From: Porifericola rhodea
GTDB lineage: Bacteria; Bacteroidota; Bacteroidia; Cytophagales; Cyclobacteriaceae
Assembly: GCF_030506305.1 (NCBI RefSeq)
Contig: NZ_CP119421.1
Span: 3,736,501-3,800,500 of the forward strand
Direction of reading: 5' to 3'
DNA: 64,000 nt
The notes under the pieces were generated by a model. It was not told the DNA's origin and ran no database searches. It was given only the letters and a program-made list of their open reading frames with translations. This document shows, one piece after another, positions 37,056 through 57,119 of this stretch. The translations under genes and the position numbers were made by a program. Each line of letters opens with the position of its first letter. Position 1 is the first letter of the stretch.

Positions 37056-38075
37056 ATGGATTACGAGCAATATGATCTAGAAGACTTTGTCGCTGACCCT
37101 TACTTCAAAAAATGGGTAAGAAAAGGAAATGCGAAGAGTAACGAATTTTGGGAGAGCTGGCTGGAAGCTCATCCAGAAAAGGCTGATACCATTGCCCAGG
37201 CAAAAAGCATATTGACATTTCTACAGTTTCAGGTAGATGAGGCTAGCGAAGAAGAAACGCTGGAAGTGAAGGCTAAGGTAATGTATAGAATAAAAAATGA
37301 AGGTGGGGGGAAGCCAGGGCATAAAAGTGTATTGTGGTTCTATATTTCTATTGCCGCCACAGTCATGATTATTCTTTCGGGCTCATATATAGTATGGCAG
37401 AATATGGTCAAAGATCCCTACCAATACTACCAGACGGCTTTTGCAGAGCAGCAGGAGATATTACTGGCAGACAGTACGCTAGTTAAGCTTAATGCCAATT
37501 CTACTCTAAAGGTACCTGTAAGCTGGATAGAGGGGAAACCCAGAGAAGTGTGGCTGGAAGGTGAAGCTTTTTTTGAAGTGGTAAAGCAGCCAAATGCCGC
37601 TGATGGACGCTTTATTGTACATACTTCACAACTAGAAGTAGAAGTATTAGGTACCACCTTTAACGTACAGTCCAGGCATGAAGAAACTCAGGTAGTACTT
37701 AACACAGGAAAAGTCAAACTACAAAAAACTAATATTAGCGAAGGTGAGCAGATAGTATTTCTGGAGCCGGGAGAAATGGCTACTGCCGACGCTAAGCAGT
37801 TGATTAAAAAACAGGTAAACCCACAGGTTTACTCATCGTGGAAAGATAACCGTCTATTTTTTGAAAATGAAAGTATCCGCAAAATCGCCCAGCGTCTGAA
37901 AGACACGTATGGCTATGAAGTGAAGGTTGATGAAGAACAGTGGTTGAACTACAAATTCACAGGTTCATGTCCTGCCGACGATATTTCTATATTGTTGGTA
38001 GCTCTTTCAGAAAGTTTTGATCTCAAGGTGATTCGTGTTAACAAACAAATCTACATACAACATGAAAACCCATAG
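37056..38075 (+). CDS. FecR-family anti-sigma factor (complete)
   Basis: Inner-membrane anti-sigma factor of 339 residues. The N-terminal cytoplasmic part (1-90) binds the sigma factor; a membrane helix is at about 91-114 (FYISIAATVMIILSGSYIVW); the periplasmic FecR domain at about 125-220 has VWLEGEAFFEVVKQ and VLGTTFNVQSR; the C-terminal DUF4974-like domain at about 265-338 (FFENESIRKIAQRLKDTYG) resembles the STN fold and contacts the transporter. It lies between the ECF sigma gene and SusC-3 (42 bases), which carries the matching STN domain. Its periplasmic part is clearly related to the partial FecR at the left end of the window. Confidence 0.95.
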   Translation: MDYEQYDLEDFVADPYFKKWVRKGNAKSNEFWESWLEAHPEKADTIAQAKSILTFLQFQVDEASEEETLEVKAKVMYRIKNEGGGKPGHKSVLWFYISIAATVMIILSGSYIVWQNMVKDPYQYYQTAFAEQQEILLADSTLVKLNANSTLKVPVSWIEGKPREVWLEGEAFFEVVKQPNAADGRFIVHTSQLEVEVLGTTFNVQSRHEETQVVLNTGKVKLQKTNISEGEQIVFLEPGEMATADAKQLIKKQVNPQVYSSWKDNRLFFENESIRKIAQRLKDTYGYEVKVDEEQWLNYKFTGSCPADDISILLVALSESFDLKVIRVNKQIYIQHENP

Positions 38076-38117
38076 TAAGTCAACACAACAAACTATCAAC
38101 CTTAATTAAATGCGAGT

Positions 38118-41834: not shown

Positions 41835-41857
41835 TAACAGCCCATAAATTATTAGTA

Positions 41858-43543
41858 ATGAAGACTGTTTTAAATATAAAAAAGACCTTAATCATTATGC
41901 TGAGCCTACTGGTAATTTCAGCATGTGAAGACACGCTTACGGAGATGAATGTCAATCCTAATGGCATTGACCCTTCTACGGCAAACCCTAATTTATTGAT
42001 GCCTTCTGTGCTGGCGCCGTCAGCGCAGCGTTACCTGGAATTAGGCTTTGGTGATATGGCAGGGGCGGTGCAGCATACACAGAAAAATGGTTGGTACTCA
42101 GCCCACAATCACTACGATTGGAGTGCCACAGACTGGAGTAACTGGTATGGTATACTTAGAACAAATTCACTTTTGGAAGAAAGAGCAATAGAGATGGAAT
42201 ACCCCTTCTTTGAAGGGGTTGCCCTGACTATGAAATCGTTCATTTATGGCAATATCACTGATATGTGGGGCGATGCTCCTTACATCAATGCTGTTCAGGG
42301 AGATGAAGGGGGCGAAACTAACGAACGACCTGTTTTTGATAGCCAGGAAGTAATATACGAAGGTATTCTTGCTGATCTGGAAAGAGCAGCCACCCTGTTT
42401 GAAACAGCCAGCTCCGAGCCGGTAAATAGCAGTGCTGACCTATACTTTGGTGGCGATACTGAAGCCTGGCAACGCTTTGCCAACTCCTTGCTTCTCAGGT
42501 ACTATATGCGTATTTCTGTAAAAAAACCTGAAGTTGCCAAAGCAGGAATAGAGTCCGTATATTCCAGTGGAAAATACCTTAAATCAGCAGACCAGGACGT
42601 TACACTGGACTATACTGGTGGCGCTAATGATGTATGGCCCTCACTCTACAATGATGTGGATGACTTTACCAGATGGCAGGCCTGCCAGACGCTGATAGAG
42701 CAGCTAACAACCACCGATGACCCTCGCCTGACAGTATGGTTTGACTCTGTAGCAGTACAATGGGTGGCAGATGCTGAGCTGGCAGTAGCAGAAGAAGATG
42801 TACTCAGAGCCAATGGTGAAATTGTTTCAGATGGCGCTCTTACTTATTCTTACCTACAGTTCATGGATATGCGCAATACTAAGTTTACCCGTCGCTTTAA
42901 TCCCGATGAGCTTTCGTATGATACCGGCCTGTATGTAGGTTTACCTCCCGGCCTCACAATTCCAGAGTCATACAATGGCAATCCCGATCCAGGACAGGGC
43001 ACACGCAATCAGCATGTATCTCAACTTGCTCCTATTTACGCTACAGCTGGCACCAGTGGAGATATATTACAGGCAAGGTTGATATCTTCCGCAGAAGTGA
43101 GTTTTATTCTGGCAGAAGCAGCCCTCAAAGGATGGAATGTCGGTAGTCCAGAAACGCATTACTATAACGGTATCCAAAATTCTCTGGATACCTGGGGTAA
43201 GGGAGCGATGTATGATGACTTCATCCAACAGCCACGGGTAGTATTTGACAACTCGCTGGAGCAGGTAATGACCCAAAAGTGGATTGCCAGCTGGACCGCC
43301 GCTACCGAAGCCTTTATGGATTATCGCAGAACAGGCTTCCCTCAGTTAAGTGTAGGGCCTGCCTCTGACCAGCCGGTAGTGGCGCTACGTTTGCCTTACG
43401 GTAATGATGAGCTGGATAATAATACTGCTAACGTAAATGCTGCTATAGATAGATTAGAAGTAACTCCGTATACTGGAGCAGTTGGCCCTAACAGCCCCTG
43501 GTCTAAGATGTGGTTACTGCAAGGAACAGGTAATCCCTGGTAG
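41858..43543 (+). CDS. SusD-like outer-membrane lipoprotein (SusD-3)
   Basis: Surface glycan-binding lipoprotein of 561 residues, partner of SusC-3 (23-base gap). The lipoprotein signal peptide ends at Cys23 (LSLLVISACEDTL). SusD-like_2 signatures: MNVNPNGIDPSTANPNLLMPSVL at the start (split motif NVNPNG, ANPNLLMP), FANSLLLRYYMRIS in the middle, EAFMDYRRTGFPQL near residue 485 and the ending SKMWLLQGTGNPW. It is longer than SusD-2 through inserted loops around residues 280-390. It closes the cassette: a terminator lies about 40 bases downstream. Confidence 0.94.
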   Translation: MKTVLNIKKTLIIMLSLLVISACEDTLTEMNVNPNGIDPSTANPNLLMPSVLAPSAQRYLELGFGDMAGAVQHTQKNGWYSAHNHYDWSATDWSNWYGILRTNSLLEERAIEMEYPFFEGVALTMKSFIYGNITDMWGDAPYINAVQGDEGGETNERPVFDSQEVIYEGILADLERAATLFETASSEPVNSSADLYFGGDTEAWQRFANSLLLRYYMRISVKKPEVAKAGIESVYSSGKYLKSADQDVTLDYTGGANDVWPSLYNDVDDFTRWQACQTLIEQLTTTDDPRLTVWFDSVAVQWVADAELAVAEEDVLRANGEIVSDGALTYSYLQFMDMRNTKFTRRFNPDELSYDTGLYVGLPPGLTIPESYNGNPDPGQGTRNQHVSQLAPIYATAGTSGDILQARLISSAEVSFILAEAALKGWNVGSPETHYYNGIQNSLDTWGKGAMYDDFIQQPRVVFDNSLEQVMTQKWIASWTAATEAFMDYRRTGFPQLSVGPASDQPVVALRLPYGNDELDNNTANVNAAIDRLEVTPYTGAVGPNSPWSKMWLLQGTGNPW

Positions 43544-43584
43544 TTGAGTCTGGGCTTTACTTTGGTATAAGCCAAATTTTTTAG

Positions 43585-43611
43585 GGCGGGGCTTATTGCT
43601 CCGCCTTTTAT
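43585..43611 (+). terminator. Rho-independent terminator after susD-3
   Basis: GGCGGGGC and GCTCCGCC (one G-T pair) form an eight-pair stem with loop TTATT, followed by TTTTATT. Confidence 0.82.
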
Positions 43612-43658
43612 TACCCAAATTGAATGAAGAAGCTATTTGATTAAATATTAAACGAAAT

Positions 43659-45026
43659 ATGCACTTTTACCAAGCTATGCGCTATACACTATTTTTAGTA
43701 CTATTCTCCTTAATCCTAACCAGCCGGGCGCAACCAGGCTCCCCTTTTCTGGATAAAAATGACCCGGAATACGCCAGAAAAATGGCGCTAAGAATGGGTA
43801 TGGATGTAAAGCTACTTTTTCCTTCCGCAGTGCCAGATCGTTTAATTTTAAACCTCACCGAAAACCCTCTCTCCTCAGTAGCTGTAAATTGGAGAACAGA
43901 TACTACAAAAACTAGCGGCTGGGTAGAGGTAGCCGAAGCTACCCATGGTCCTGAGTTTATCAACAATGTACGAAAAATACAGGCCAGTACCGAGCAGTTG
44001 AAAGTTAGTGTGGCCGATGAGCCCGATGTAATTGCCAACTATCATGCTGCCCTCATCAACGAGCTGGAGGCAGGAACAAAATATGTATACCGCGTAGGAG
44101 AGGGAGAGCACTGGAGCGAATGGATACAGTTTGAGATGCCTGATGAAAATAAATCTCTCTCTTTTCTCTACTTTGGCGATGCACAGAATGACGTAAAGTC
44201 AATGTGGTCACGGGTGATAAGAGAAGCTTACAAAACCATGCCCGAAATAGACTTTATGTTACATGCCGGAGACCTTATTAACCGTCATAATCGTGATATT
44301 GAGTGGGGAGAGTGGTTTCATGCTGGCTCCTTTATTCATGCTAGCATTCCCAGTGTTATGACACCAGGCAACCACGAATATAAAAATGTTGTTCTGTCGC
44401 CTCAATGGAGACCTCAGTTTAACTTACCACTCAATGGGCCAAAGGGTCTGGAAGAAACCTGTTATCAGATCAACTATCCTAACCTCAAGCTTATTTCGTT
44501 GGATGCAGAGCAAATAGATGAGTCTGAAACTCTTCGTAAAGCACAGTTGCACTGGCTGGACTCTATCCTTCAAAATGATCCTCGCCAGTGGACTGCTATT
44601 ACACTGCATTACCCTTTTTACTCTACCAACCCCAGCCGGGATAATGCCGAACTACGAGAATATTTTAAGCCTATAGTAGACAAGCATCAGGTAGATATTG
44701 TACTGCAAGGTCACGATCATGCCTACGGTCGCGGAATGATCAGCAACGTAGCTAGTGGAAGTCAGGTGGTTTCAGAGTCATCAGGTACTATGTATGTAGT
44801 ATCTGTATCCGGGCCTAAAATGTACGAAGTATCGGATGATCCTTGGATGTTTCGTAAAGCTGGAAACACTCAGTTATTTCAAATCATTACGATTGAAGGC
44901 GATATGCTAAACTACGAAGCCTATACAGCTAGCGGTGAGTTGTACGATGCGTTCCAGTTGCAAAAACAGAAGGGTAAACCTAACCGTCTGCTTAACAAAA
45001 TACCCGATTTCTCGGAAAGGCATTAA
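43659..45026 (+). CDS. Purple-acid-phosphatase-like metallophosphoesterase, secreted
   Basis: Exported phosphohydrolase of 455 residues. Signal peptide ends near residue 24 (LILTSRAQ). An N-terminal fibronectin-like beta-sandwich at about 58-160 (LSSVAVNWRTDTTKTSGWVEV) is typical of purple acid phosphatases. The dinuclear metal site is complete: Asp174 (YFGDAQND), Asp205 (HAGDLINRH), Asn238-His239 (PGNHE), the His in TLHYPFYS and GHDH in VLQGHDHAYGRG. It probably releases phosphate from sugar phosphates or other phosphomonoesters in the periplasm. A terminator separates it from susD-3 upstream, and 92 bases separate it from the BNR operon downstream, so it may have its own promoter or lead that operon. 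Confidence 0.92.
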   Translation: MHFYQAMRYTLFLVLFSLILTSRAQPGSPFLDKNDPEYARKMALRMGMDVKLLFPSAVPDRLILNLTENPLSSVAVNWRTDTTKTSGWVEVAEATHGPEFINNVRKIQASTEQLKVSVADEPDVIANYHAALINELEAGTKYVYRVGEGEHWSEWIQFEMPDENKSLSFLYFGDAQNDVKSMWSRVIREAYKTMPEIDFMLHAGDLINRHNRDIEWGEWFHAGSFIHASIPSVMTPGNHEYKNVVLSPQWRPQFNLPLNGPKGLEETCYQINYPNLKLISLDAEQIDESETLRKAQLHWLDSILQNDPRQWTAITLHYPFYSTNPSRDNAELREYFKPIVDKHQVDIVLQGHDHAYGRGMISNVASGSQVVSESSGTMYVVSVSGPKMYEVSDDPWMFRKAGNTQLFQIITIEGDMLNYEAYTASGELYDAFQLQKQKGKPNRLLNKIPDFSERH

Positions 45027-45118: not shown

Positions 45119-46228
45119 ATGAACTATCAATCTACCATACGCTTAATGAGTTTGTGTTTCTTGTTGGCTTGTAGTGCGAATACGCAAGACAGGCCACAAG
45201 AAACTACTACTACTGCCAATGCCATTGAATACCCGGTCAAAGATTTTGTGTTTAACGATGACCAACCCTTTCCGCAATGCCATGCTTCTACCTTAATCCG
45301 TTTGGATGACGGGCAGTTTCTTGTGGCCTGGTTTGGGGGTAAGCACGAGAAAAACGATGATGTGGGTATATGGCTTACCAAAGGCAGACCTGGCCAATGG
45401 AGCAGCCCGCAAGAGGTAGCCAAGTTGAGACAAGACCCACACTGGAACCCGGTGCTTTTTCAGTCAGAAGAAGGGGAAGTTTATCTGTATTTTAAAGTAG
45501 GCAAAGAGATAGATGAGTGGGAGACCTGGCTGATGACCTCAACTGACGAAGGCGAGAACTGGAGCGAAGCTACCGAACTGGTACCTGGAGACCGGGGTGG
45601 GAGAGGGCCGGTAAGAAACAAGCCCATCATCCTTTCTGATGGCACCTGGCTGGCAGGTGCTTCCAAAGAAACCAACAGAGTATGGGATGCCTTTGTTGAT
45701 CGTAGCGAAGATCAGGGAGAGAGCTGGGAGGCTACCCCCTTTTTAGAGCTGGACCGCAGCGAAGTAGAAGGTGAAGGAGTCATACAGCCTACCTTATGGG
45801 AGTCTGAACCCGGACATGTACATATGCTTATTCGCAGCTCTGCGGGTGTTATCTGCCGTAGCGATTCTGAAGATTATGGCAAAACCTGGTCGCCTATCTA
45901 CAAAACGGAGCTACCCAACCCTAATAGCGGTATAGATCTGGCTCAGCTTGAAGATGGTACTCTGGCACTAGCCTATAACCGTGATGATGAAAACTGGGGG
46001 GCTCGCGCACCACTTTCTATTGCCCTCTCTTTTGACAACGGCAAAACCTGGCCCCGCATGCTGGATGTAGAAAAAGGAGGAGAAGATGATGAGTTTTCTT
46101 ACCCTGCCATCATCAGCTTTGGAGATTCCTTAGCGCTAACCTACACCTGGCAAAGAGAAAAAATTGCTTTTTGGATAGGTACTAAAGACGATATACCATC
46201 TAGTCCGTTGGCATTAGAATCTCTGTAG
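45119..46228 (+). CDS. BNR/sialidase-fold exported protein (BNR-1)
   Basis: Six-bladed beta-propeller protein of 369 residues of the BNR_2 (sialidase-superfamily) group. N-terminal lipoprotein-like signal (CFLLACSANTQ, candidate Cys18). Four Asp-box motifs of the SxDxGxxW type are visible: STDEGENW, RSEDQGESW, SEDYGKTW and SFDNGKTW. The start of the fold carries HASTLIRLDDGQFLVAWFGG and a later block reads ELPNPNSGIDLAQLEDG, both shared in form with BNR-2 at 55752. I cannot see the RIP/FRIP motif of true sialidases, so the glycoside or lyase activity and the substrate are open. First gene of a tightly packed operon; the next gene begins three bases after its stop. Confidence 0.88.
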   Translation: MNYQSTIRLMSLCFLLACSANTQDRPQETTTTANAIEYPVKDFVFNDDQPFPQCHASTLIRLDDGQFLVAWFGGKHEKNDDVGIWLTKGRPGQWSSPQEVAKLRQDPHWNPVLFQSEEGEVYLYFKVGKEIDEWETWLMTSTDEGENWSEATELVPGDRGGRGPVRNKPIILSDGTWLAGASKETNRVWDAFVDRSEDQGESWEATPFLELDRSEVEGEGVIQPTLWESEPGHVHMLIRSSAGVICRSDSEDYGKTWSPIYKTELPNPNSGIDLAQLEDGTLALAYNRDDENWGARAPLSIALSFDNGKTWPRMLDVEKGGEDDEFSYPAIISFGDSLALTYTWQREKIAFWIGTKDDIPSSPLALESL

Positions 46229-46231
46229 TGT

Positions 46232-47527
46232 ATGGGCAATTTCGCATTTGTATTAAGGTTACTTTTGGTAGCCATGTCTTTGGCTACGGCCTGGGCAGTG
46301 CGCGGGCAGTTTGGTCATGAGCACGGAGCTGCCTGGGCTGGGGCGATAGGGGTATTGGCTATAGTGATATTAAGTAAAAGGCAGGACTGGCTCCGGAGGT
46401 TACCCGCCATTGTGGCTCTGGGAGCCATAGGCTGGGGTGCAGGTGGTATGATGAGCTACGGAAAGGTTGTAGGTTACGCTAAAAGTCTGGATCTGCTTAA
46501 CGTGACCTATGGCCTGTTCGGCCTGTTTATCATTGGTGCGCTTTATGGCTTTATCGGTGGGGGACTTAGCAGCTTGGCATTAGCATCTACTGAAAGCAAA
46601 AAAGTAAAGTGGGCATCACTGATAACACAAATGGTGGCAGGTGCTTATCTCATCTGGGGCATACTCATCTATCAGTTGGAATGGCTAATGACGCCGCCCC
46701 GCTCTGAGTTATGGGCAGCTTGCCTGGGTGCAGCTATGGCGCTTGGGTGGTATGCCTATCGTAATGCCTATCATGCCAGCTTCAAAACAGCTATGTATTC
46801 CGCACTGGGAGCTGGATTCGGCTTTGCATTTGGTAACTTCTTACAGGTACTTGGCCCTTATACCGGATTGGAGTTCAACTGGTGGAATGTAATGGAGTAC
46901 AGTTTGGGTTTCTTTGGAGGTTTGGGCATGGCTTATGGTGTATTTTCATCAGAATGGGAAGAGAGCCAGGTCGCAGATAATGCAGCTAACATCATTGGGT
47001 GGGTTTTCCTTATTATTCTACTTCCTTTAACAAATATTATTCAGGCTTTTTCCTACGAAAAGCTACTGAGCCGAGGAAAAGTGCTCAGCCCGGCAGAGCC
47101 TGAAGCCTTTGTGCAGTTAGAGTATATACTGAGCTGGGGAAGCTTATTGCTGTTAGGAGGTTTTGCATTCTTTTATTTTAAGAGGTCTGTACTTACACAA
47201 CAGGATTGGAGTAGTAAACAATTACTACTGCTGTTTGTGCTTTATCTCGGGTGGTATATTTTCTTAAGCAATATTATGGGAGGGATATGGTTAAACGGAG
47301 GAGGTACCAAAGAATATCTCTACTGGGCCAATCTTGTTATCATTAGCCTGGGATTAAGCTACTCCTTTAATTGGAACAAAAACTATCAGCCATATGGCAC
47401 ATCTTATAGCTTATGTTGGCGGCTGGCAACTACCACAATACTGATCCTTTTTGTACTGAGCCTTATTTTAGTTAACACACACGGCGACCTTCCGGGGGCT
47501 CAAAAAAGATTTGTGTTATGGGAGTAG
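46232..47527 (+). CDS. Unknown polytopic membrane protein
   Basis: I do not recognise the family. The 431 residues contain about 11-12 hydrophobic helices and almost no soluble domains. Recognisable points are an early motif AVRGQFGHEHGAAWAGAIG at about residues 22-40, with a His pair in or near the membrane, and glycine-rich helices (GLFIIGALYGFIGGGLSSLA, YSLGFFGGLGMAYGVF). It is squeezed between BNR-1 (three-base gap) and the Na+/solute symporter (10-base overlap), so it is co-translated and must be tied to sugar handling, perhaps as a second transporter or a membrane-bound acyl or glycosyl transferase. No catalytic motif of a known transferase is visible. Confidence 0.8.
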   Translation: MGNFAFVLRLLLVAMSLATAWAVRGQFGHEHGAAWAGAIGVLAIVILSKRQDWLRRLPAIVALGAIGWGAGGMMSYGKVVGYAKSLDLLNVTYGLFGLFIIGALYGFIGGGLSSLALASTESKKVKWASLITQMVAGAYLIWGILIYQLEWLMTPPRSELWAACLGAAMALGWYAYRNAYHASFKTAMYSALGAGFGFAFGNFLQVLGPYTGLEFNWWNVMEYSLGFFGGLGMAYGVFSSEWEESQVADNAANIIGWVFLIILLPLTNIIQAFSYEKLLSRGKVLSPAEPEAFVQLEYILSWGSLLLLGGFAFFYFKRSVLTQQDWSSKQLLLLFVLYLGWYIFLSNIMGGIWLNGGGTKEYLYWANLVIISLGLSYSFNWNKNYQPYGTSYSLCWRLATTTILILFVLSLILVNTHGDLPGAQKRFVLWE

Positions 47528-49086
47528 AGTTTAGATCACTTGACCTGCTTACATTAGGGGTTTATCTGGCTACTATGGCCGGGCTGGGAGTGTATTTCTC
47601 CCGGAAGAATGATAGCACCGAAGATTACTTCGTAGGTAACCGATCTTTTAAAGGATGGGTAATCGGGCTTTCTATGCTCAGTACCTCTATCAGTTCTATT
47701 ACTTTTCTGGCTTTTCCGGCAGCAGCCTACACGCTAGACTGGCGACAGCTCATATCTAACTTAATGCTTCCTCTGGCGGCGGTGCTGGCAATTGTAGTAT
47801 TTATTCCTTTTTTCCGAAGGGGTAAGCTTACTTCAGCCTTTGAGTATCTGGGTGATCGTTTTGGGCCAGTAGCCCGGCTTTATGGCACTGTTAGCTTTCT
47901 CATTCTACAGATCATCCGCATTGGGCAGATATTGTTTCTGGTAGCCATACCTGTCAACCTGTTTACGGGTATACCAATTACTACTACTATTATGTTGGTA
48001 GGTGTGTTCATTGCGTTTTATACCGTGGCCGGGGGTATAGAAGCTGTTATCTGGACTGATGTAATTCAGGCCATCGTGCTCTGGATAGGGGGATTAATCT
48101 GCCTGATATTGATGATAGATAAGCTGCCCGAAGGTATATCTCAGGTCTTTAGTGTAGCGGAAACCCACGAGAAGTTTAGCATCGGCAGTATGGAATGGAA
48201 CCTGGGTGAACGTACTTTCTGGACAGTAGCCCTATTGGGTATTTTTCACTTTTTAGGCATGTACTCCAGCGACCAGAATATCATACAGCGCTACGTAGCC
48301 ACTCAAAGTACACGTGAAGCAAAAAAAGCGACACTAATCTACTCAGTAGTAGCTTTGCCTACCTGGTCTTTGTTCTTCTTTATCGGTACTACACTATTTG
48401 TATTCTATACGGTATTTCCAGAAACATCTGTAGCCAGTCTGGAAGCCGATCAGGTATTTCCTTACTTTATCCTTAGTCAGCTGCCAGCAGGAGTATCAGG
48501 CTTAATCATAGCTGCCGTATTAGCAGCCGGTATGTCTACACTGGATTCCAGTATCAATGCTATTTCTACAGTAACGGTAGTGGATATTCTGAAACCGTAC
48601 TGGATGAAAGGTAGAGATGATAAAACCTATTTGAGAACTGCCCGGTGGATTGCGATAGGCGTATCACTACTAATGATGGGCGGCGCCTTTTTCTTTAGCG
48701 TCATAGAAAAAGAAAGTATTAACGATATCAGCTGGATAGTAGCCTCAGTATTTGGAGGTTGCCTGGTCGGCCTGTTTATGATCGGTTTCTTTACCACCCG
48801 CGTTGGCTATAAGGCGGTGCTTCCTGCATTACTACTTTCAGTACTGGTTAATCTTTATCTGGGTTTTAGCCTTACTGGCTGGCTACCTGAAGTAATAAGC
48901 ATGGACATTCAGGCCTATTGGGTAGGTGTAATTGTTAACCTGCTTTTCATGGCTTTGGCCTATATTTTCAGTTTCTTTATCAAAAATAATAAAGAGCTGG
49001 ATGGGCTTACGGTCTGGACTACCCTTACAGCCAAGGATATTAATTTAGTTGAAAAAAATGCACGAGAATCAAGTATACAATCTTAG
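47518..49086 (+). CDS. Na+/solute symporter, SSS family
   Basis: Inner-membrane sodium-coupled symporter of 522 residues with about 13 helices. Family signatures: VGNRSFKGWVIGLSMLSTSISS near residue 40 (Na+-site region), GGIEAVIWTDVIQAIVLW, SSDQNIIQRYVATQSTREAKKA and AAGMSTLDSSINAISTVTV, which carries the Na2-site serines. Members move sialic acids, sugars, inositols, amino acids and carboxylates, and in nan-type clusters an SSS protein imports sialic acid. Here it lies between BNR-1 and a DapA/NAL-family lyase, so a keto-acid or acidic sugar is the likely cargo. It overlaps the upstream gene by 10 bases and the downstream one by 29. Confidence 0.93.
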   Translation: MGVEFRSLDLLTLGVYLATMAGLGVYFSRKNDSTEDYFVGNRSFKGWVIGLSMLSTSISSITFLAFPAAAYTLDWRQLISNLMLPLAAVLAIVVFIPFFRRGKLTSAFEYLGDRFGPVARLYGTVSFLILQIIRIGQILFLVAIPVNLFTGIPITTTIMLVGVFIAFYTVAGGIEAVIWTDVIQAIVLWIGGLICLILMIDKLPEGISQVFSVAETHEKFSIGSMEWNLGERTFWTVALLGIFHFLGMYSSDQNIIQRYVATQSTREAKKATLIYSVVALPTWSLFFFIGTTLFVFYTVFPETSVASLEADQVFPYFILSQLPAGVSGLIIAAVLAAGMSTLDSSINAISTVTVVDILKPYWMKGRDDKTYLRTARWIAIGVSLLMMGGAFFFSVIEKESINDISWIVASVFGGCLVGLFMIGFFTTRVGYKAVLPALLLSVLVNLYLGFSLTGWLPEVISMDIQAYWVGVIVNLLFMALAYIFSFFIKNNKELDGLTVWTTLTAKDINLVEKNARESSIQS

Positions 49087-49969
49087 GGGAATTGTTCCCC
49101 CCCTTGCTACTCCACTCCATGATCAGGATACCTTAGATCAGGCTGGGTTACGTAAGCTTCTAAAGCACGTAATAGATGGGGGAGTACAGGGCATATTTAT
49201 GTTAGGCACTACGGGCGAAGCCCCTAGTCTAAGCTATCACTTGCGTAAAGAAGTAATAGAAGTAAGTGTGGCAGAAGTAAGCCGGAGCGTACCTGTACTG
49301 GTAGGTATAAGTGATAGCAGTCTGTCAGAAGCGATAGCATTTGCCCGTTTCGCTGCTCAGGCTGGTGCTTCAGCGGTAGTAGTAGCTCCTCCTTTCTATT
49401 ATCCTGCTACCCAGCAGGCTTTGTACGATTACGTAATACAGATTTGTGCAGCTGTGGACATTCCTCTTTATATCTACAATATTCCCAGCCATAGCCCCCA
49501 TGCTTTTTCTCCAGAAACCATAGTTCGTCTCTTAGAGCACCCCCAGGTAGCGGGCTATAAAGATAGTACCTGTAGTATGATGGCTTATCATCAGCTGAAA
49601 TATAAGCTGGGTGCAGACTTTAAAAAGACCTATCTGCTAGGCCCTGAAGAACTCCTGGCAGAGTCGGTAATGCTGGGAGCGCATGGCGGCGTAAATGGTG
49701 GTGCAAATATCTTTCCTAAGCTGTACGTACGCCTGTATGAGGCAGCAGTAAAAGGAGATACCGCTCTTATGAACGAACTTCATCAAAAAGTAATGCAGGT
49801 CAGCCAGAACCTGTATCAGGGAGGTAAGACTGTGATACAGGGCGTTAAGTTTGCGCTGGCGGAAAAAGGCATCTGCCAGGAGCAGGTAGCTCTTCCGCTT
49901 GTCTCACTAAGTGCGGAGGAAAAAGAGAATATGAGAAGCTTTTTGCACAGCTTTGATGCCGAACTTTAA
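49058..49969 (+). CDS. DapA/NAL-family class I aldolase (dihydrodipicolinate synthase-like)
   Basis: TIM-barrel lyase that forms a Schiff base with pyruvate or a 2-keto-acid. The ATG at 49058 gives 303 residues; a TTG nine bases upstream is also in frame. Active-site residues: GTTGE at 50-54, Tyr140 (YIYNIPS) and Schiff-base Lys168 (VAGYKDST). The family includes DHDPS, N-acetylneuraminate lyase and 2-keto-3-deoxy-sugar aldolases. The GTTGE form is closer to DHDPS/KDG aldolase than to E. coli NanA. The setting next to an SSS symporter and BNR proteins favours cleavage of an imported 2-keto-3-deoxy or sialic-acid-like sugar over lysine biosynthesis. Specificity is inference. Confidence 0.92.
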   Translation: MHENQVYNLRGIVPPLATPLHDQDTLDQAGLRKLLKHVIDGGVQGIFMLGTTGEAPSLSYHLRKEVIEVSVAEVSRSVPVLVGISDSSLSEAIAFARFAAQAGASAVVVAPPFYYPATQQALYDYVIQICAAVDIPLYIYNIPSHSPHAFSPETIVRLLEHPQVAGYKDSTCSMMAYHQLKYKLGADFKKTYLLGPEELLAESVMLGAHGGVNGGANIFPKLYVRLYEAAVKGDTALMNELHQKVMQVSQNLYQGGKTVIQGVKFALAEKGICQEQVALPLVSLSAEEKENMRSFLHSFDAEL

Positions 49970-49980
49970 ATCCAAACACT

Positions 49981-50448
49981 ATGGAGTACAATAAAATACA
50001 TACACTACCTTCTCTGTTAAACGAATTACAGAAAGAACGTAACGCGGCCAGGAAGGTCGTATTTACCAACGGCTGTTTTGATATACTGCATCGTGGACAC
50101 GTTACCTATCTTAGAGAGGCACGCTCTTTAGGCGATCTACTGGTTATCGGCTTAAATACTGATGCCTCCGTAAAGAGACTTAAGGGAGAAAGCCGTCCGA
50201 TCAACCAGGAAGATGATAGAGCTTTTATACTGGAAAGTCTGGCTTGTGTAGACTATGTAGTCAAATTTGAAGAAGATACCCCCCATGAGCTATTATCTAA
50301 AGTGCAGCCTGATATACTGGTAAAAGGTGGTGACTACAAACTGGAAGATGTGGTAGGTAGGGAGTTTGCCAAAGAAGTGATCCTGATAGATTTTGTAGAT
50401 GGCTACTCTACCACCAAAACCATTCAGCAAATGCAAGAAAAGGCTTAG
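49981..50448 (+). CDS. rfaE2: RfaE2-like sugar-1-phosphate adenylyltransferase
   Basis: Nucleotidyltransferase of 155 residues. In LPS heptose synthesis RfaE2 transfers AMP from ATP to D-glycero-beta-D-manno-heptose 1-phosphate. Signature residues: TNGCFDILHRGHVTYL with the HRGH motif at 37-40, GLNTDASVKRLKG, NQEDDRAFILESLACVDYVV and the closing DGYSTTKTIQQM. This is the normal length of a separate RfaE2; in enterobacteria it is fused to the kinase RfaE1. It lies 11 bases after the aldolase gene and upstream of a kinase-phosphatase fusion, so it may make an NDP-activated sugar from a sugar-1-phosphate. The exact sugar is unknown, since an ordinary LPS role would not explain this catabolic context. 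Confidence 0.88.
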   Translation: MEYNKIHTLPSLLNELQKERNAARKVVFTNGCFDILHRGHVTYLREARSLGDLLVIGLNTDASVKRLKGESRPINQEDDRAFILESLACVDYVVKFEEDTPHELLSKVQPDILVKGGDYKLEDVVGREFAKEVILIDFVDGYSTTKTIQQMQEKA

Positions 50449-50550
50449 TTCCTTAGCTTAATACTACCCCGAGTCTACCGCCCAGATTACCGCTCATTAC
50501 TTGATATACAATATCAGATCAGGGAAATCGGGCTACAGACTCCGTTTCCT

Positions 50551-52482
50551 ATGAATTATAAATCTACAAGCATGAAAACTCAAACTAAGCACATATTTCA
50601 GTCCATCAGTGAGTTAAGGGTAGGGGTGATAGGGGATTTTGCCATAGATGTGTACTACCCTCTGGACAAAAATACTGGTGAAATATCTTTGGAGACAGCC
50701 AAGGAAGTGCATCGTGCAGGTAGCTGCCGTACGTATCTGGGCGCAGCAGGTAATATTGTTCAAAACCTGAATGCTTTAGGGGTAAAGCAAATTCATACTT
50801 TTGGTTTGTTAGCCAACGATCTTTGGGGGCGTGAACTATTATACCTCCTTCAGGACAAAAAGGTGAATACCTCAGGTATGTTATTTCAGGAGGAAGGCTG
50901 GAACAGTTGCGCCTATGTAAAACCTATGCTGGGCAAAGAGGAAGATAACAGGCTAGACTTTGGTTCCTATAATCAGCCTGACCCAAAAAGAAGGGAAGCG
51001 GTATTTCAAAAGTTAGAAGCTCAACTACCTCAGCTGGATCTGCTTATTATTAATCAGCAGTTTGTGCGCCCCTTACTGGATGAAGAAGCAGTAAAGTACC
51101 TCAACAATCTGGTAGAGCGCCATGCTCACTGTCTTTTTGCCGCAGATATGCGAAATGTAGCTTCAGGTTTGAGAAAGGTCCTGCTAAAAGCTAATACCAA
51201 AGAAACCGCACGCATTCTGGATACGCTACCCTTTGACGAAAGGGATGATGCTGAATGCGAACAAAAAGCAGCTGAACTGAGCCGACACCTGCAAGCCCCG
51301 GTACTGCTTACCCGAGGCGAAAATGGTATGATGTACCACAATACTAAGCAAATCTACAGCATACCTGGTGTCTGGCACGATGGAGAAACTGATGCGGTAG
51401 GGGCAGGAGATACCGCAATCAGCACTTTTGGTGCCTGCCTGGCGGCAAAAGCTGATATCTCTACCGCATTACAACTCGCAAACCTGGCTTCTGCCATTAC
51501 GGTAACCAAGCTACAGCAGACCGGTACCGCAAAGCAGGAAGAAATTGAAAAGTTATCACAAAATTGTACTTATATCTATCATAGCTTTCTGGCGGCAAAT
51601 CCTGGTAGAGCAACTTTCTATGAAGACTCAGACATAGAAATAGTAGAAGAATTTGAGCGTAGTAAAAAGCCAAGGTTTATTGTCATGGATCATGATGGTA
51701 CTATCTCTGTACTTCGTGAAGGCTGGGAAGAGCTTATGCATGATATGATGCTCAGGTGTATTACCGGAAATGAACTTTCATCCCTTAAACCTGAAGAGCG
51801 TACTACTCTTTCTACCAAGATTAATCAGCTGATTAGCCAGACTACCGGTGCTCCAACTATAGTACAGATGGAAGGTCTCCTTGATATGGTCATCAGGGAG
51901 GCATATCTGAAGTCTGATGAAGCAAAGACCGCTGAAGAATACAAAGCCATGTATCTGGAGTACCTCAATCAGCATGTAGAAGAAAGAATCCTCCGCTTCC
52001 AGAAAGGTGAGCTACACCTGCATGACTTTACGATTAAAGGAGTGAAGCATTTTATACAGCTGGTACGCGACCGATCCATAGGCCTCTATCTGGCAAGTGG
52101 AACAGATGAGGATTACGTAGTCAAAGAAGCTACAGCTTTAGGTTATGCTGACTCTTTTAATGGCGGGATACACGGAGCCAGACCCGACGGAAAGAGTGCA
52201 AAACGAAAGGTGCTGAGCCACCTTACTGAAACCCTTAAAGTCAGTGGAGAAGAAATCATCGTAATAGGAGATGGGCCTTCAGAAATTCGCGAGGGCAGAA
52301 AAGTTGGTGCCCTGTGTGTGGGTATTGCTTCTGACGAGCTCAGGCGTCATGGGCTTAATCTGCACAAGAGGGAAAGGCTTATTCGTGCCGGGGCGCACAT
52401 CATTATACCCGACTATGCACAGCTCAACCTGCTGGAACAATTATTACTAAGCCCTGACTCACTTAGCGTGGCTACATCCTAA
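50551..52482 (+). CDS. PfkB/RfaE1-like sugar kinase fused to a HAD phosphatase
   Basis: Two-domain cytoplasmic enzyme of 643 residues (a second ATG at 50572 would remove seven). N-terminal ribokinase/PfkB domain at about 20-345 with LGAAGNIVQNLNALG and the catalytic segment DAVGAGDTAIS (281-291, base Asp287); the substrate-side motifs resemble RfaE1 heptose kinases. C-terminal HAD domain at about 375-640: nucleophile motif MDHDGT (Asp380, acid Asp382), a helical cap at about 395-490, the Ser/Thr loop LASGTDEDY, and the metal loop VIGDGPSEI. Both active sites are complete. The pair could phosphorylate a sugar at C1 and remove another phosphate, the two steps that precede RfaE2. Fusion of these two activities is unusual. 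It follows rfaE2 after 102 bases. Confidence 0.9.
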   Translation: MNYKSTSMKTQTKHIFQSISELRVGVIGDFAIDVYYPLDKNTGEISLETAKEVHRAGSCRTYLGAAGNIVQNLNALGVKQIHTFGLLANDLWGRELLYLLQDKKVNTSGMLFQEEGWNSCAYVKPMLGKEEDNRLDFGSYNQPDPKRREAVFQKLEAQLPQLDLLIINQQFVRPLLDEEAVKYLNNLVERHAHCLFAADMRNVASGLRKVLLKANTKETARILDTLPFDERDDAECEQKAAELSRHLQAPVLLTRGENGMMYHNTKQIYSIPGVWHDGETDAVGAGDTAISTFGACLAAKADISTALQLANLASAITVTKLQQTGTAKQEEIEKLSQNCTYIYHSFLAANPGRATFYEDSDIEIVEEFERSKKPRFIVMDHDGTISVLREGWEELMHDMMLRCITGNELSSLKPEERTTLSTKINQLISQTTGAPTIVQMEGLLDMVIREAYLKSDEAKTAEEYKAMYLEYLNQHVEERILRFQKGELHLHDFTIKGVKHFIQLVRDRSIGLYLASGTDEDYVVKEATALGYADSFNGGIHGARPDGKSAKRKVLSHLTETLKVSGEEIIVIGDGPSEIREGRKVGALCVGIASDELRRHGLNLHKRERLIRAGAHIIIPDYAQLNLLEQLLLSPDSLSVATS

Positions 52483-52494
52483 TCGTATAAACTC

Positions 52495-53544
52495 ATGAGA
52501 ATTTCTTTAGTACTTATTAGTATGCTCTTCTTTTGTACAAAAGTAGAAGCGCAGACCTATGCCGAAAAGTTAGGCTGGAATGCCGGACAGAAGCTTCTGA
52601 TTATGCATGTAGATGACGCAGGTATGTCCTACGACTCAAATCAGGGAGCCATACAGGCGATGGAAAAAGGAATAGCCAATTCGGTCAGTATTATGATGCC
52701 CTGCCCCTGGGCGGCCAGTTTTGTAAAGTATGTGAAGAATAATCCTGCTACCGATGCTGGCCTGCATCTCACCCTTACCTCAGAGTGGAAAGACTATCGC
52801 TGGCATCCTCTATGCGGCATTCCGCAGGTACCCGGGCTGGTAGATGAAGAGGGCGCAATGTGGCATACCGTAGAGCAGGTGGCTCAGCATGCCTCTCCCG
52901 ATGAAGTAGAGCAGGAGATACGGCAGCAGGTAGAGCGTGCTCTCCGTCTGGGGTATCGCCCTACCCATCTGGACTCCCACATGGGTACACTCTTCGCAAC
53001 AGAAGAGTTTTTGCAGCGCTACATCAGGGTAGGAGTAGCTTATGATATACCTGTTATGTTACCAGGAGGGCATAATACTCTATTAAAACAGGGGTACCGA
53101 GAAAAAGCTATTGAAGCACTTCAAAAACAAGGTAAACACCAGGAGGGGATGGATGTGCCCCTGCCCGCAGCGGTAGATAAGGCAGAAGCCGTAGGAAAAA
53201 TGGTATGGGAGGCAGGGCTTCCTGTTCTGGACGATCTGCACCTGATCAGTGGAGACTGGTCATTGGCAGAAGGAGTAACGCACAACGAAGTCAATATCCA
53301 TGAGCTTAAAGTGCGGAAATTTAAAGAGCTTTTTGAGCAAATGCAGCCCGGCATTACAATGGTTATCGTACACTGTACTGATCCTACTGAAGTGTTTCCG
53401 AAAATCTCTGGCTCCGGGCTGTCTCGTAAAGGTGACCTGCTTGCGATGATAGACCCCAGGCTCAAACAATACCTCCAAGACAATAATATACAATTGACCA
53501 CCTGGCGAGAACTTAAAGAAAGAAGGGATCGCCTTGCTAAGTAA
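52495..53544 (+). CDS. YdjC/ChbG-family carbohydrate deacetylase, secreted
   Basis: Metal-dependent carbohydrate deacetylase of 349 residues with a signal peptide ending near residue 20 (TKVEAQ). Metal ligands: Asp40-Asp41 (MHVDDAGMS), His in DAGLHLTLTSEW and His in PTHLDSHMGTL. ChbG removes N-acetyl groups from chito-oligosaccharides; other members act on acetylated sugars. The signal peptide places this one in the periplasm, whereas ChbG is cytosolic, so it may deacetylate the glycan before import. It lies 12 bases after the kinase-HAD gene and 23 bases before the two-part secreted protein, in the same operon. The substrate acetyl group is unknown. Confidence 0.9.
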   Translation: MRISLVLISMLFFCTKVEAQTYAEKLGWNAGQKLLIMHVDDAGMSYDSNQGAIQAMEKGIANSVSIMMPCPWAASFVKYVKNNPATDAGLHLTLTSEWKDYRWHPLCGIPQVPGLVDEEGAMWHTVEQVAQHASPDEVEQEIRQQVERALRLGYRPTHLDSHMGTLFATEEFLQRYIRVGVAYDIPVMLPGGHNTLLKQGYREKAIEALQKQGKHQEGMDVPLPAAVDKAEAVGKMVWEAGLPVLDDLHLISGDWSLAEGVTHNEVNIHELKVRKFKELFEQMQPGITMVIVHCTDPTEVFPKISGSGLSRKGDLLAMIDPRLKQYLQDNNIQLTTWRELKERRDRLAK

Positions 53545-53567
53545 AACCATCAATTTTAACAACAGCT

Positions 53568-55721
53568 ATGAAAACTTTTTGCGTGTTTGTAACACTACTG
53601 CTATCTATTGCCCATTTACAGGCCGAGCCTGATTTGCCTTTTAAGCAGCCTGTATCTGTAAAGTATAAGCTATCCGACGAGCTTAAAGGAGCTCAGCTCC
53701 AAAAAGTAGTGGTAGACTACGATGATGTAGTTCATGTGTTGAGCAACAAAGGCTTGCTCAGAATTATAGACCAGCAGCTGGTGTCCGATATCACTTACCG
53801 GCCACTGGCTGAGCGTAGACCTCTGGATATCTGTATACAGGAAGAAACGGGCTATCTCTATTATTTGTATCCCGACAAGTTTCTGACGAACGCGCATGCT
53901 GGTATCCCTTATGGCAAGCTCCCTGATGCTCAGTATAATAAGATAGCCGTAAATCATAAAGGAGAAGTCTTATTACTGGGCAATAAGGCTATGGCTATTC
54001 ACGCTAATGGAGTATTTACCAAGCTGAAGTCGCCTGCCAATCAGGTTCAGGAAGTGCATGTGCACAGAGGACAGTTTTATCTGCTTACGACCCACGAAAT
54101 ACTGCGCCTGGAGGGAGAAAAGCTTAAGGTCTTGCACAAAGTAAAAGACGCCAACAGTATCGTATTTAGAAAAGAAGAAATTGTGGTAGGTACCGACAAT
54201 GGCTATTATGGCATTTCCTGTCTGGATGGTAGCCATACCTTTGAGGTTTTTAACCAGGTACCAGTACCCCATATCACTAAACTAGCTACTACAAATGACG
54301 GACTTTGGGCAGCAAGTCCTCAGGGAGCTTTTATGCGACAGGCTAATGGTAAATTCCGCTACTATGCTTCTAAGCGCTGGCTGGATAAGGATGAAGTGCT
54401 TGATCTGGCTGCTGATAGTCAAGGAAATATGTATTTAATGACTGAGCAGGGGCTGAACAAAGTAGAGTTCAGGCTACATACCCTGGCAGATAAAGCTGAT
54501 TACTTTGAAGAAAAAATTCGTCAGCGGCATATGCGCTACGGCTTTATAGCTGAGCTGAGACTTAAAGAAGCAGGAGATATTACTACAGCAGAGATGATAG
54601 ATACTGATAATGATGGCTTGTGGAGTTCTTTCTATCTGGGAAGTCAGGCTTTTCGTTATGCTACTACTGCTGAAGCTAAAGCACGCCGTAATGCCTGGGA
54701 GTGTTTTGAGGCTTTTGAACGAATATTATCTATCAATCAGCTTACTGGTTTTCCTTCCCGCACTTTTGAGCGCAAAGGTTATAAAGTATCTGACCTGGAG
54801 CGCTGGCGCGAGTCTCCCGACCCCGAATGGGAGTGGAAAGGACATACCAGCAGCGATGAGTTTGTAGCCTACATCTATATCGCTTCCATCATGGATGAGT
54901 TTATTGCCGAAACAGAAGCAGAAAAGAAAAGAGTAGCAAATTTTATTGATGCAATCCTCACCCACATCATAGAAAATGACTACTATTTTGTGGATATAGA
55001 CGGAAAGCCCACCCTCTGGGGCAGGTGGAACCCTGAATATATCAACTGGTACCCGCCTTCGGTGGTAGACCGTAAGCTGGGCAGCCTACACCTTATCGCT
55101 GGCTTGCAACTGGCCTATGACCTGAGTGGTAAAGAAATCTTTAAAGAGGAAGCCTTTCGCATGATGGAAGAGCATGGCTATCTGGAAAATATTAAAATTC
55201 CAATGGAAGAGATCAGGTCTACGCCGGGCTATGTTTATGAGGGGCATAATATGGGAGAAGGTTCGTGGAACCATTCTGATGATGAAATGGCGTTCCTGAC
55301 CTATTGGGTGCTTCATCGCCATGCTTTTAACGACAGCCTGAAACAAATCTACGAAGAGGCAATACAAAATCACTGGGCTATAGAGCAACCAGAACGTAAT
55401 GCTGTCTGGAACCTGGTGACTCTGGGCACTGAGGGCTCATTTGACGAAGCATCTACGCTATGGTTTATGCGTGATTATCCTATGGATTTGGTTCGGTATA
55501 CAACAAGAAACTCACACCGCAAAGACCTTAACTTTCTGGAGCCAAACTTCCGCAACCAGCTAACTGCAGAGCTTCTGCCTGCTGCGGAAAGACCCATCAT
55601 TCGGTTTAATGCTAACCCTTTTAAGATGGATGGCGGGAGTGATGGACGCAGAGAGCTTACCGGTGCGGAGTACCTGCTACCATACTGGATGGCACGCTAC
55701 TACCATATTATTGAAGAATAG
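53568..55721 (+). CDS. Unknown secreted protein: propeller-like N-terminus plus alpha-helical C-terminus
   Basis: I do not recognise this as a named family. The 717 residues begin with a signal peptide (to about residue 19, LSIAHLQAE). Residues about 30-305 show repeated beta-strand units resembling a ligand-binding propeller (VVVDYDDVVHVLSNKGLL, LAADSQGNMYLMTEQGLNKV). From about 330 the chain is helical with many Trp and Tyr (WGRWNPEYINWYPPSVVDRKL, HNMGEGSWNHSDDEM), the appearance of an (alpha/alpha) barrel as in polysaccharide lyases and unsaturated glucuronyl hydrolases. Conserved acidic-His clusters (EGHNMGEGSWNHSDDE) are candidate catalytic residues. Its position between the deacetylase and BNR-2 suggests cleavage of the same glycan. 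A novel glycoside hydrolase or lyase is a reasonable hypothesis. Confidence 0.78.
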   Translation: MKTFCVFVTLLLSIAHLQAEPDLPFKQPVSVKYKLSDELKGAQLQKVVVDYDDVVHVLSNKGLLRIIDQQLVSDITYRPLAERRPLDICIQEETGYLYYLYPDKFLTNAHAGIPYGKLPDAQYNKIAVNHKGEVLLLGNKAMAIHANGVFTKLKSPANQVQEVHVHRGQFYLLTTHEILRLEGEKLKVLHKVKDANSIVFRKEEIVVGTDNGYYGISCLDGSHTFEVFNQVPVPHITKLATTNDGLWAASPQGAFMRQANGKFRYYASKRWLDKDEVLDLAADSQGNMYLMTEQGLNKVEFRLHTLADKADYFEEKIRQRHMRYGFIAELRLKEAGDITTAEMIDTDNDGLWSSFYLGSQAFRYATTAEAKARRNAWECFEAFERILSINQLTGFPSRTFERKGYKVSDLERWRESPDPEWEWKGHTSSDEFVAYIYIASIMDEFIAETEAEKKRVANFIDAILTHIIENDYYFVDIDGKPTLWGRWNPEYINWYPPSVVDRKLGSLHLIAGLQLAYDLSGKEIFKEEAFRMMEEHGYLENIKIPMEEIRSTPGYVYEGHNMGEGSWNHSDDEMAFLTYWVLHRHAFNDSLKQIYEEAIQNHWAIEQPERNAVWNLVTLGTEGSFDEASTLWFMRDYPMDLVRYTTRNSHRKDLNFLEPNFRNQLTAELLPAAERPIIRFNANPFKMDGGSDGRRELTGAEYLLPYWMARYYHIIEE

Positions 55722-55751
55722 AAACCTAAAGTATTACACGGCCTTTCAGAT

Positions 55752-57119
55752 ATGAGAAAACAGTTTTTATCATTTGCCACTTTAATTCTGATACTGTATA
55801 GCTGCCAGCCAAAAAATGAAGAGGCAGATGTCCCGGATGCGGGAAGTCCGTCTATGGTAGAGCAGATTATTTTTCCAACCCAGCCTGAGCATACGCATGG
55901 CCCTACAGTCGTAGAGTTGAGTAACGGAGACTTGCTGGCAGCCTGGTTTCAGGGTTCTGGTGAACGCTGGGCTGATGATGTGCGCATTATGGGCGCCAGA
56001 AAAAAAGTTGGCGCCAATGAGTGGTCCTCACCTTTTGTGATGGCAGATGCGCCAGGCTTCCCCGATGTTAACCCTATGCTTTTTGTAGACCAGCAGGATC
56101 GCCTCTGGCTGATGTGGTATACTGTGCTCGCCAACCTTTGGGAAACCTCATTGCCCCGCTACAAAATCAGTGAAAACTATACTGCTGATGCTGCTCCCGT
56201 CTGGACATGGCAAGATAACGTACTGCTAAAGCCGGGCGGTAAAACAGAAAGAGGCATACAACCTGATGATCCTTTCGTACAGGCTGCCCAGCAGCAGATA
56301 AAAGCCTATGAGCCGTATTTTAAAGATACTTTGCTGAGCACCTTAAGTGCTGAACAACAGCAGGACATACTGCCCAAATGGGAAGCCTACAAAAGTAAGC
56401 TGGACAGTCTGGCCAGAGGGCAGAACATGCTACGCAATGGGAGAATCTACGAAGGCGAAGAAACACGCTCCGCTGAACTGGGCTATCCGCTGATGCGCCG
56501 TATCGGGTGGCAAACGAAAAATAAACCTTTTCTAATGGGAGACAGAATCATTGTTCCCCTCTATTCTGATGGCCTGGACTGCTCTATCTTTGCTTATACA
56601 GATGATGGTGGCCAGCAGTGGGAAACCAGCAATCCAGTAATAGGGGGTATAGGTATACAGCCTACAATACTGCAAAAAAATGATGGCACTCTGGTTGCAT
56701 ACCTTCGCGATAATGGCCCCCCTCCCTATCGTATGCAATATACCGTCTCTAAAGACAGCGCTAAGCACTGGTCTATTCCAAGAGATGCTGAGTTGCCGAA
56801 TCCTGGTGCAGGCTTTGATGGAGTTACACTTAAAGATGGCAACTGGCTAATGGTGTATAATGATACCGAAGATGGCAGGCATAGCCTGGCACTGGCCCTC
56901 TCCGAAGATGAAGGAAAAACCTGGCCCTGGATCAGACATCTGGAACATGATACCCGAGGAGAGCAGGCCACCCAAAGCCATTACCCCGCCATTATTGAAG
57001 GGAAAGATGGACGAATACATATGGTTTACAGTTACTTTCACAATGATCAGGAGGGCAGTGCTAAGACTATCAAGTATGTGAGCGTATCTCCAGAGTGGGT
57101 AAAAGAGGAAGCTAACTGA
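55752..57119 (+). CDS. BNR/sialidase-fold exported lipoprotein (BNR-2)
   Basis: Second sialidase-superfamily propeller of the operon, 455 residues, with lipoprotein signal (LILILYSCQPKNEE, Cys19). Asp-box motifs: YTDDGGQQW, VSKDSAKHW and LSEDEGKTW. It shares with BNR-1 the start HTHGPTVVELSNGDLLAAWF and the block ELPNPGAGFDGVTLKDG, so both are divergent paralogues with the same core. It is longer because of a helical insertion at about residues 165-225 (QQQIKAYEPYFKDTLLSTL) that BNR-1 lacks. Activity is not proven to be sialidase; the shared ELPNPxxGxD block may mark the active site. It is the last gene of the operon, before a terminator. Confidence 0.88.
   Translation: MRKQFLSFATLILILYSCQPKNEEADVPDAGSPSMVEQIIFPTQPEHTHGPTVVELSNGDLLAAWFQGSGERWADDVRIMGARKKVGANEWSSPFVMADAPGFPDVNPMLFVDQQDRLWLMWYTVLANLWETSLPRYKISENYTADAAPVWTWQDNVLLKPGGKTERGIQPDDPFVQAAQQQIKAYEPYFKDTLLSTLSAEQQQDILPKWEAYKSKLDSLARGQNMLRNGRIYEGEETRSAELGYPLMRRIGWQTKNKPFLMGDRIIVPLYSDGLDCSIFAYTDDGGQQWETSNPVIGGIGIQPTILQKNDGTLVAYLRDNGPPPYRMQYTVSKDSAKHWSIPRDAELPNPGAGFDGVTLKDGNWLMVYNDTEDGRHSLALALSEDEGKTWPWIRHLEHDTRGEQATQSHYPAIIEGKDGRIHMVYSYFHNDQEGSAKTIKYVSVSPEWVKEEAN

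Follow-up and report, generated by a model that had tools for sequence, protein, structure and literature searches.

A SusCD-type operon of Porifericola rhodea that may harvest a carboxylated 2-keto-3-deoxy sugar and holds the genome's apparently sole standard RfaE2 gene

A 64,000-nucleotide stretch of the Porifericola rhodea genome (the window; NZ_CP119421.1, positions 3,736,501 to 3,800,500) contains a gene array that was originally predicted, from the letters alone, to be a sugar-processing operon in which part of a scavenged sugar is turned into a nucleoside diphosphate sugar (NDP-sugar) by way of RfaE2. The genome (G000) is a single contig of 5.49 Mb and is 99.87% complete. Open reading frame (ORF) and family scans recover nine plus-strand ORFs between 45119 and 57119: BNR_2, a membrane protein, SSF, DHDPS, RfaE2, PfkB plus HAD (the kinase-HAD fusion), YdjC, a 717-aa protein that was missing from the title of the original prediction, and a second BNR_2. 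As had been claimed, most of these genes are separated by short gaps or overlap (-38 to +30 bases), the exception being 102 bases before the kinase-HAD gene. Because genes for an ECF-type sigma factor, a FecR anti-sigma factor, SusC, SusD and a purple acid phosphatase-like enzyme lie upstream on the same strand (36329-45026), we take the unit to be 36329-57119 (Table 1). The window is Bacteroidota-like in its SusC and SusD genes. These two are adjacent and have glycan-active genes alongside, which is the gene content of a polysaccharide utilisation locus. The LigD_N, AAT-like, DUF6807, PfkB and redoxin genes downstream do not look like part of the unit and apparently lie outside it.

Table 1. 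Genes of the unit, with positions in the window and the matches on which each assignment rests.
Feature	Position	Strand	Basis
ECF-type sigma factor	36329..36967	+	Sigma70_r4_2 above cut-off, Sigma70_r2 slightly below; syntenic in G012, G091, G125
FecR anti-sigma	37056..38075	+	FecR, FecR_C
SusC-type TonB-dependent receptor	38118..41834	+	Plug, CarbopepD_reg_2, weak STN
SusD-type lipoprotein	41858..43543	+	SusD-like_2
Purple acid phosphatase-like enzyme, signal-like start	43659..45026	+	Pur_ac_phosph_N + Metallophos; present in G012, G091, not in G125 operon
BNR1, sialidase-fold, four Asp boxes, lipobox-like start	45119..46228	+	BNR_2 252 bits
MEM membrane protein	46232..47527	+	No Pfam above cut-off; homologue (55%) adjoins kinase-HAD in G570
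SSS symporter near SiaT	47518..49086	+	SSF; 5nv9 249 bits; S59, T62, R134 kept
DHDPS/NAL-family aldolase, start codon uncertain	49049..49969	+	DHDPS 212 bits; NanA alignment
RfaE2 (heptose 1-phosphate adenylyltransferase family), type B	49981..50448	+	TIGR02199 201.6 vs cut-off 181.5; HxGH
Kinase-HAD fusion (PfkB nearest HldA model + HAD)	50551..52482	+	PfkB, Hydrolase; TIGR02198 126.7 vs 345; motifs kept
YdjC-type deacetylase, signal-like start	52495..53544	+	YdjC 191 bits
717-aa protein, propeller-like N half, helical C half, signal-like start	53568..55721	+	No Pfam
BNR2, second sialidase-fold protein, lipobox-like start	55752..57119	+	BNR_2 156 bits

The order sigma-FecR-SusC-SusD-(phosphatase)-BNR1-MEM-SSS-aldolase-RfaE2-kinase-HAD-YdjC-717-BNR2 recurs in three relatives (G012, G091 and, minus the phosphatase, G125), and an 8.5 kb contig of a fourth (G175) covers the portion from SSS to BNR2, with the aldolase split over two frames and a short YdjC. 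Since the order is kept in four relatives, in G175 partially, the array is not there by chance. The original prediction was to fall if its genes occurred apart in relatives, and in part they do. G071 has BNR1-SSS-aldolase-RfaE2 without any kinase-HAD match in its genome; in G025 the kinase-HAD (61%) sits in an unrelated setting, apart from an RfaE2 that lies in the context MFS carrier-aldolase-RfaE2; and in nine other family genomes as well the kinase-HAD is not beside RfaE2, one of them (G090) being without any RfaE2 match. No description of this gene set was found among the literature matches listed, which comprise titles and abstract openings, with subscription papers mostly outside the scope.

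The RfaE2 of the array, above the cut-off of its model, also carries the HxGH motif (as HRGH at residue 37). Among 196 genomes of the family, RfaE2 exceeds the cut-off in 88, as a single copy in each except G049 (two); G133 (180.8 bits) and G008 (181.3 bits), slightly below 181.5, were excluded. The copy in the window is of a type, here called B, that eight genomes share at 70-82% identity (G000, G012, G091, G125, G175, G071, G025 and G098), in all of which it is the sole RfaE2 above the cut-off. Five of the eight hold it in the operon; the contexts in G071 and G025 differ as described above, and in G098 it stands alone. The usual site in the family is panD-LPG_synthase_TM-RfaE2, with RfaE2 immediately 3' of LPG_synthase_TM in 11/11 type-A regions examined and followed by a zinc peptidase gene (10/11) or an acyl-CoA dehydrogenase gene (1/11). 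This house site is empty in every type-B genome (8/8), where 114-160 bases are all that separates the LPG_synthase_TM gene from the peptidase gene, and filled in both controls, which are among the 11 type-A regions. A family tree of type B and 38 type-A copies resolves the type-A side (98/100) and does not resolve type B as one side of a branch. Once 29 class-wide relatives are included, type B forms one clade (98/93) that groups with seven RfaE2 domains of HldE fusions (89/83), the fusion status resting on NCBIfam models for two of the seven (one slightly below the cut-offs) and on HldA comparison for all seven. Given this grouping, the RfaE2 of the window seems to be an acquired copy that has replaced the resident gene, probably by transfer. 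At the 29 class-wide RfaE2 loci, no aldolase match was found beside RfaE2 within about 3.4 kb.

A dedicated HldA (64-100%) is present in all eight type-B genomes, and in P. rhodea separate HldA and GmhA genes lie away from the operon. Of the 196 genomes, 85 have both HldA and RfaE2, 8 have HldA only, 3 have RfaE2 only and 100 have neither, so that HldA accompanies RfaE2 in 85/88. These counts were assembled by hand from survey lists. G133, excluded from the RfaE2 list by its score, is therefore one of the 8. A match to the kinase-HAD query was counted as HldA if it extended over most of the kinase domain, the weakest being at 2.8e-6, and shorter matches were left out. The three RfaE2-only genomes have an HldA piece (G004), a 38-residue piece (G081) or the kinase-HAD alone (G086). 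The proposed conversion of scavenged sugar, in part, to an NDP-sugar by RfaE2 is not supported, RfaE2 being the cell's sole copy above the cut-off with HldA and GmhA encoded elsewhere. The reading we favour, to which we give about an even chance, is that the SusCD locus harvests a carboxylated 2-keto-3-deoxy sugar and that its RfaE2 has replaced the resident copy and serves HldA, under operon control. It draws on gene content, synteny, the sole copy, the empty house site, the co-occurrence with HldA and the residues kept in the transporter and enzymes.

Several observations weigh against it. RfaE2 begins 9-15 bases after the aldolase gene in five genomes, and the mechanical frames of the two overlap in G071 and G175. 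A search for the aldolase in 24 genomes gave eight matches, with RfaE2 directly behind seven of them and the eighth (G090, 39%) in a genome without RfaE2, which is tight for a passenger gene; this position behind the aldolase in seven genomes is the strongest argument for some operon link, perhaps shared regulation. In G125 a gap of 5 bases separates RfaE2 from the kinase-HAD gene, compared with 102 in P. rhodea, and RfaE2 is present in 14/15 kinase-HAD genomes, where shared ancestry has to be noted; HldA, moreover, is the nearest NCBIfam model for the kinase domain of the fusion. Finally, a second, weak RfaE2-like domain is found in P. rhodea, G012, G091 and G175, in frames of 452-483 aa, where the family survey gave no second RfaE2 match in G125, G071, G025 or G098.

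In P. rhodea the second domain belongs to a 449-aa protein (L051:6445-7794, +) in which a weak RfaE2-like nucleotidyltransferase is fused to an HddA-like GHMP kinase, with a molybdenum-cofactor radical SAM gene nearby; RfaE2-like matches of 86-93 bits occur in frames of similar size in six other family genomes. Because of this fusion a second heptose route may exist in P. rhodea. The original prediction had named, as a result that would speak against it, RfaE2 being the cell's only lipopolysaccharide (LPS) heptose enzyme; this largely applies, with the weaker fusion as a qualification.

Could the kinase-HAD and RfaE2 nevertheless work in series, as a C1 kinase, a phosphatase and an adenylyltransferase, so that the product of the aldolase, or some other sugar set free, ends up as an ADP-sugar from which the cell builds its own surface glycan? 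The kinase domain, nearest to HldA, scores far below the cut-off of that model (Table 1), where the dedicated HldA of P. rhodea reaches 326.7, itself just below. The HAD part matches general HAD models and, far below their cut-offs, phosphonatase and phosphoglycolate phosphatase; it gave no match to a GmhB/histidinol-phosphatase model at E<=0.001, in a library whose inclusion of a GmhB model was not checked. The kinase-HAD is near full length in 15/196 family genomes, and we examined the loci of the other 14 for neighbours. In nine distant family loci, where the kinase-HAD is at 35-38%, a SIS gene adjoins it in five (L043, L045, L046, L047, L050); two SIS proteins were scanned, and for both the best model was gmhA, below its cut-off. 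Isomerase, kinase, phosphatase and adenylyltransferase types are therefore all found around the fusion, and together with the nearest HldA model and the spacing of 5-11 bases in G125 this speaks for such a series. Against it, the two genes are separable both ways: G071 has aldolase-RfaE2 without a kinase-HAD in the genome, and G090 has the kinase-HAD and SIS without RfaE2 or dedicated HldA matches. RfaE2 tracks HldA, and the HAD part hits general models, with no heptose bisphosphatase model among the matches. We therefore consider an ADP-sugar series doubtful.

The neighbours of the distant kinase-HAD vary. GH92, a manno-type family, occurs in four of the nine loci (L043, L044, L046, L047) and also in L118, likewise with a distant kinase-HAD; an AGE-type epimerase and a distant SSS occur in L048 and L049; and L042 has no SIS, GH92, AGE-type epimerase, LarB/LarC-type or aldolase neighbours. 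An ArgZ-like 345-aa gene is present in four of the five loci L043, L044, L046, L047 and L050, with neighbour subsets that vary. In L045 (4503-18205), whose genome gave no match to RfaE2, the kinase-HAD and SIS genes lie near LarB/LarC-type genes, an HpcH/HpaI aldolase, a 39% DHDPS aldolase, GH2 and a DegT aminotransferase, a set that could possibly form a nickel-dependent sugar-acid route. Class-wide, 7/395 genomes match the kinase-HAD at E<=1e-40, P. rhodea included. G432 has it with GH92, YdjC and BNR2, and G570 with MEM and BNR2 in a locus cut by the contig end; the other four matches are kinases without HAD, three of which have an AGE-type gene next to them on the downstream side (identified by Pfam in one case and by resemblance in two). 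Of four weak matches in a contig search none was accepted as a kinase-HAD, and L036 alone resembles it in the gene comparison (21%).

What might the locus harvest? In BNR1 and BNR2, R239, R296, D81 and Y328 are kept at positions that we take to be those of the GH33 arginine triad, Asp and Tyr, in an alignment that contains no GH33 sequence, and H55 and Q223 stand where the first Arg and the Glu of GH33 are presumed to be, identically in 9/9 rows. By alignment with NanA, the aldolase keeps the Schiff-base/lyase Lys, the Tyr and GTTGE, whose lyase roles we assume, and has a His at the position of DapA Arg138, presumably a functional residue there. The aldolase also scores below the DapA model (TIGR00674, 196.2 vs 206.15) and far below the N-acetylneuraminate lyase models (109.9 vs 382 and 136.4 vs 281). 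Among solved structures the symporter comes closest to 5NV9, which is SiaT, a sialic acid symporter from Proteus mirabilis that is coupled to Na+ and for which the residues that hold N-acetylneuraminic acid (Neu5Ac) have been described (PMC5931594). Counting positions on the alignment, the carboxylate residues S60, T63 and R135 of SiaT are kept, and the N-acetyl/glycerol set F78, G81 and Q82 is changed to Q77, S80 and N81; Phe243, Asn247 and Gln250 also seem different, in a region where the alignment is one place unsure. With the carboxylate residues kept, the N-acetyl pocket changed and the aldolase without the DapA arginine, the best-fitting substrate, as far as sequence comparison can tell, is a 2-keto-3-deoxy sugar acid that has no N-acetyl group. 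The acids 2-keto-3-deoxynononate (KDN) and 3-deoxy-manno-octulosonate (KDO) are guesses.

An ordinary nan locus for Neu5Ac is highly unlikely. The N-acetyl and glycerol pocket is altered, the NanA-family scores are far below the cut-offs, the first Arg and the Glu of GH33, at their presumed positions, are not seen in either BNR protein, and the families identified in the unit include neither a NanE-type epimerase nor a ROK kinase. In its favour, TonB/SusD uptake, sialidase-fold proteins, a SiaT-like symporter and an NAL-family aldolase are much like what has been described for nan loci (PMC3969230).

A link with KDO can be drawn in two ways. The locus could salvage foreign LPS inner core, made of KDO and phosphorylated heptose, with the aldolase cleaving KDO, the kinase-HAD handling the heptose and RfaE2 re-activating it. 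The ulosonic-acid type of the symporter and aldolase, the phosphatase, the heptose-type enzymes and GH92 in the five loci with a distant kinase-HAD are consistent with this; yet action on KDO or heptose is not demonstrated for any enzyme here, the KDO idea rests on exclusion, the BNR proteins do not have residues presumed essential in GH33, and GH92 is absent from the operon in the window. Such salvage is, in our judgement, clearly unlikely. Alternatively, the locus could supply the cell's own inner core with KDO, taken up by the symporter or made by the aldolase from pyruvate and arabinose, with RfaE2 as a second inner-core gene. KdsB exceeds the cut-off in all 16 genomes tested and KdsA in six; none was found above the cut-off in G000, G012, G091, G025, G125, G175, G071, G042 or G079, and G098 has broken pieces. 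The seven genomes with the aldolase next to RfaE2 all have KdsB and no KdsA above the cut-off (7/7). G042 and G079 are also without KdsA, yet have no such aldolase at E<=1e-45, and we regard a KdsA-free route through the locus as the least probable of the explanations weighed. With G098 likewise giving no aldolase match at this threshold, the aldolase was rejected as a general replacement of KdsA. The KdsA-like matches of about 340 aa were also rejected as KdsA: the one inspected (G025, L167) has KPRTS, which we take to be a DAHP synthase signature, where the KdsA of G090 has KANRTS. The occurrence of KdsB without KdsA raises the question of the KDO source in these bacteria.

Returning to the favoured reading, the SusCD-type locus, with its own sigma/anti-sigma pair, would harvest a glycan bearing a carboxylated 2-keto-3-deoxy sugar, running in the direction of breakdown. 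Trimming of the glycan would fall to the BNR proteins, putatively exported, and to the 717-aa protein, while the phosphatase would take off phosphate and YdjC acyl groups; the SiaT-like symporter would bring in the free acid, the aldolase would convert it to pyruvate and an aldose, and the kinase-HAD may carry out kinase and phosphatase steps on a sugar product. The most likely role of RfaE2 is to work with HldA in making surface heptose, under operon control; it is not a demonstrated step of the harvest. Because the operon holds the apparently sole standard RfaE2 copy, it is probably the location of this gene, and not one new pathway, that ties feeding to the building of the surface. What is supported of the predicted sugar-processing operon is harvest by a conserved gene set that comprises regulators, enzymes bearing signals, an SSS carrier and an aldolase of the pyruvate type; a single pathway that includes RfaE2 is not supported. 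The gene is missing from its usual site, and a copy within an apparently nutrient-controlled operon takes its place; if this is true, surface heptose could depend on diet. Biosynthetic and catabolic genes that share an operon need not belong to one pathway, which is a trap in reading such arrays.

The sigma/FecR pair suggests that the operon has its own regulation. A promoter scan gave 23 sites (22.9 expected), and a strict Bacteroidota-type pattern (TTTG, 17-23 bases, TAnnTTTG, which we assume to be the consensus) gave 0 matches on both strands of the window; terminator-like sites number 22 (11.3 expected) and were not interpreted. In the 717-aa protein, positions 199-298 give profile matches to the sensor propellers 3v9f and 4a2l, and the C half is conserved as well as helical, with a 26-28% relative in L045; a single-sequence model was of low confidence, its mean pLDDT being 36.8, and did not enter a fold search.

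Among known systems, the operon has features of three. The pathway to ADP-heptose (GmhA, HldA/HldE, GmhB, RfaE2/HldC) shares with it an RfaE2 above the cut-off, a kinase nearest HldA and, in relatives, a GmhA-like partner; it differs in that the kinase in the window is far from the HldA cut-off, the HAD part matches only general or unrelated models and the operon has no isomerase gene. SiaT (PMC5931594) is of the same family as the symporter, with the same carboxylate Ser, Thr and Arg, and has Phe78, Gly81 and Gln82 where the symporter has Gln, Ser and Asn. The nan (NanOU) loci of Tannerella and Bacteroides (PMC3969230) combine TonB/SusD uptake, a sialidase-type enzyme, an inner-membrane carrier and a pyruvate-lyase-family enzyme, as does the operon described here. 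Compared with them, the operon has an SSS carrier in place of the MFS NanT, an altered N-acetyl pocket and neither NanE nor ROK kinase, and it adds the kinase-HAD, RfaE2, YdjC, the 717-aa protein and the phosphatase.

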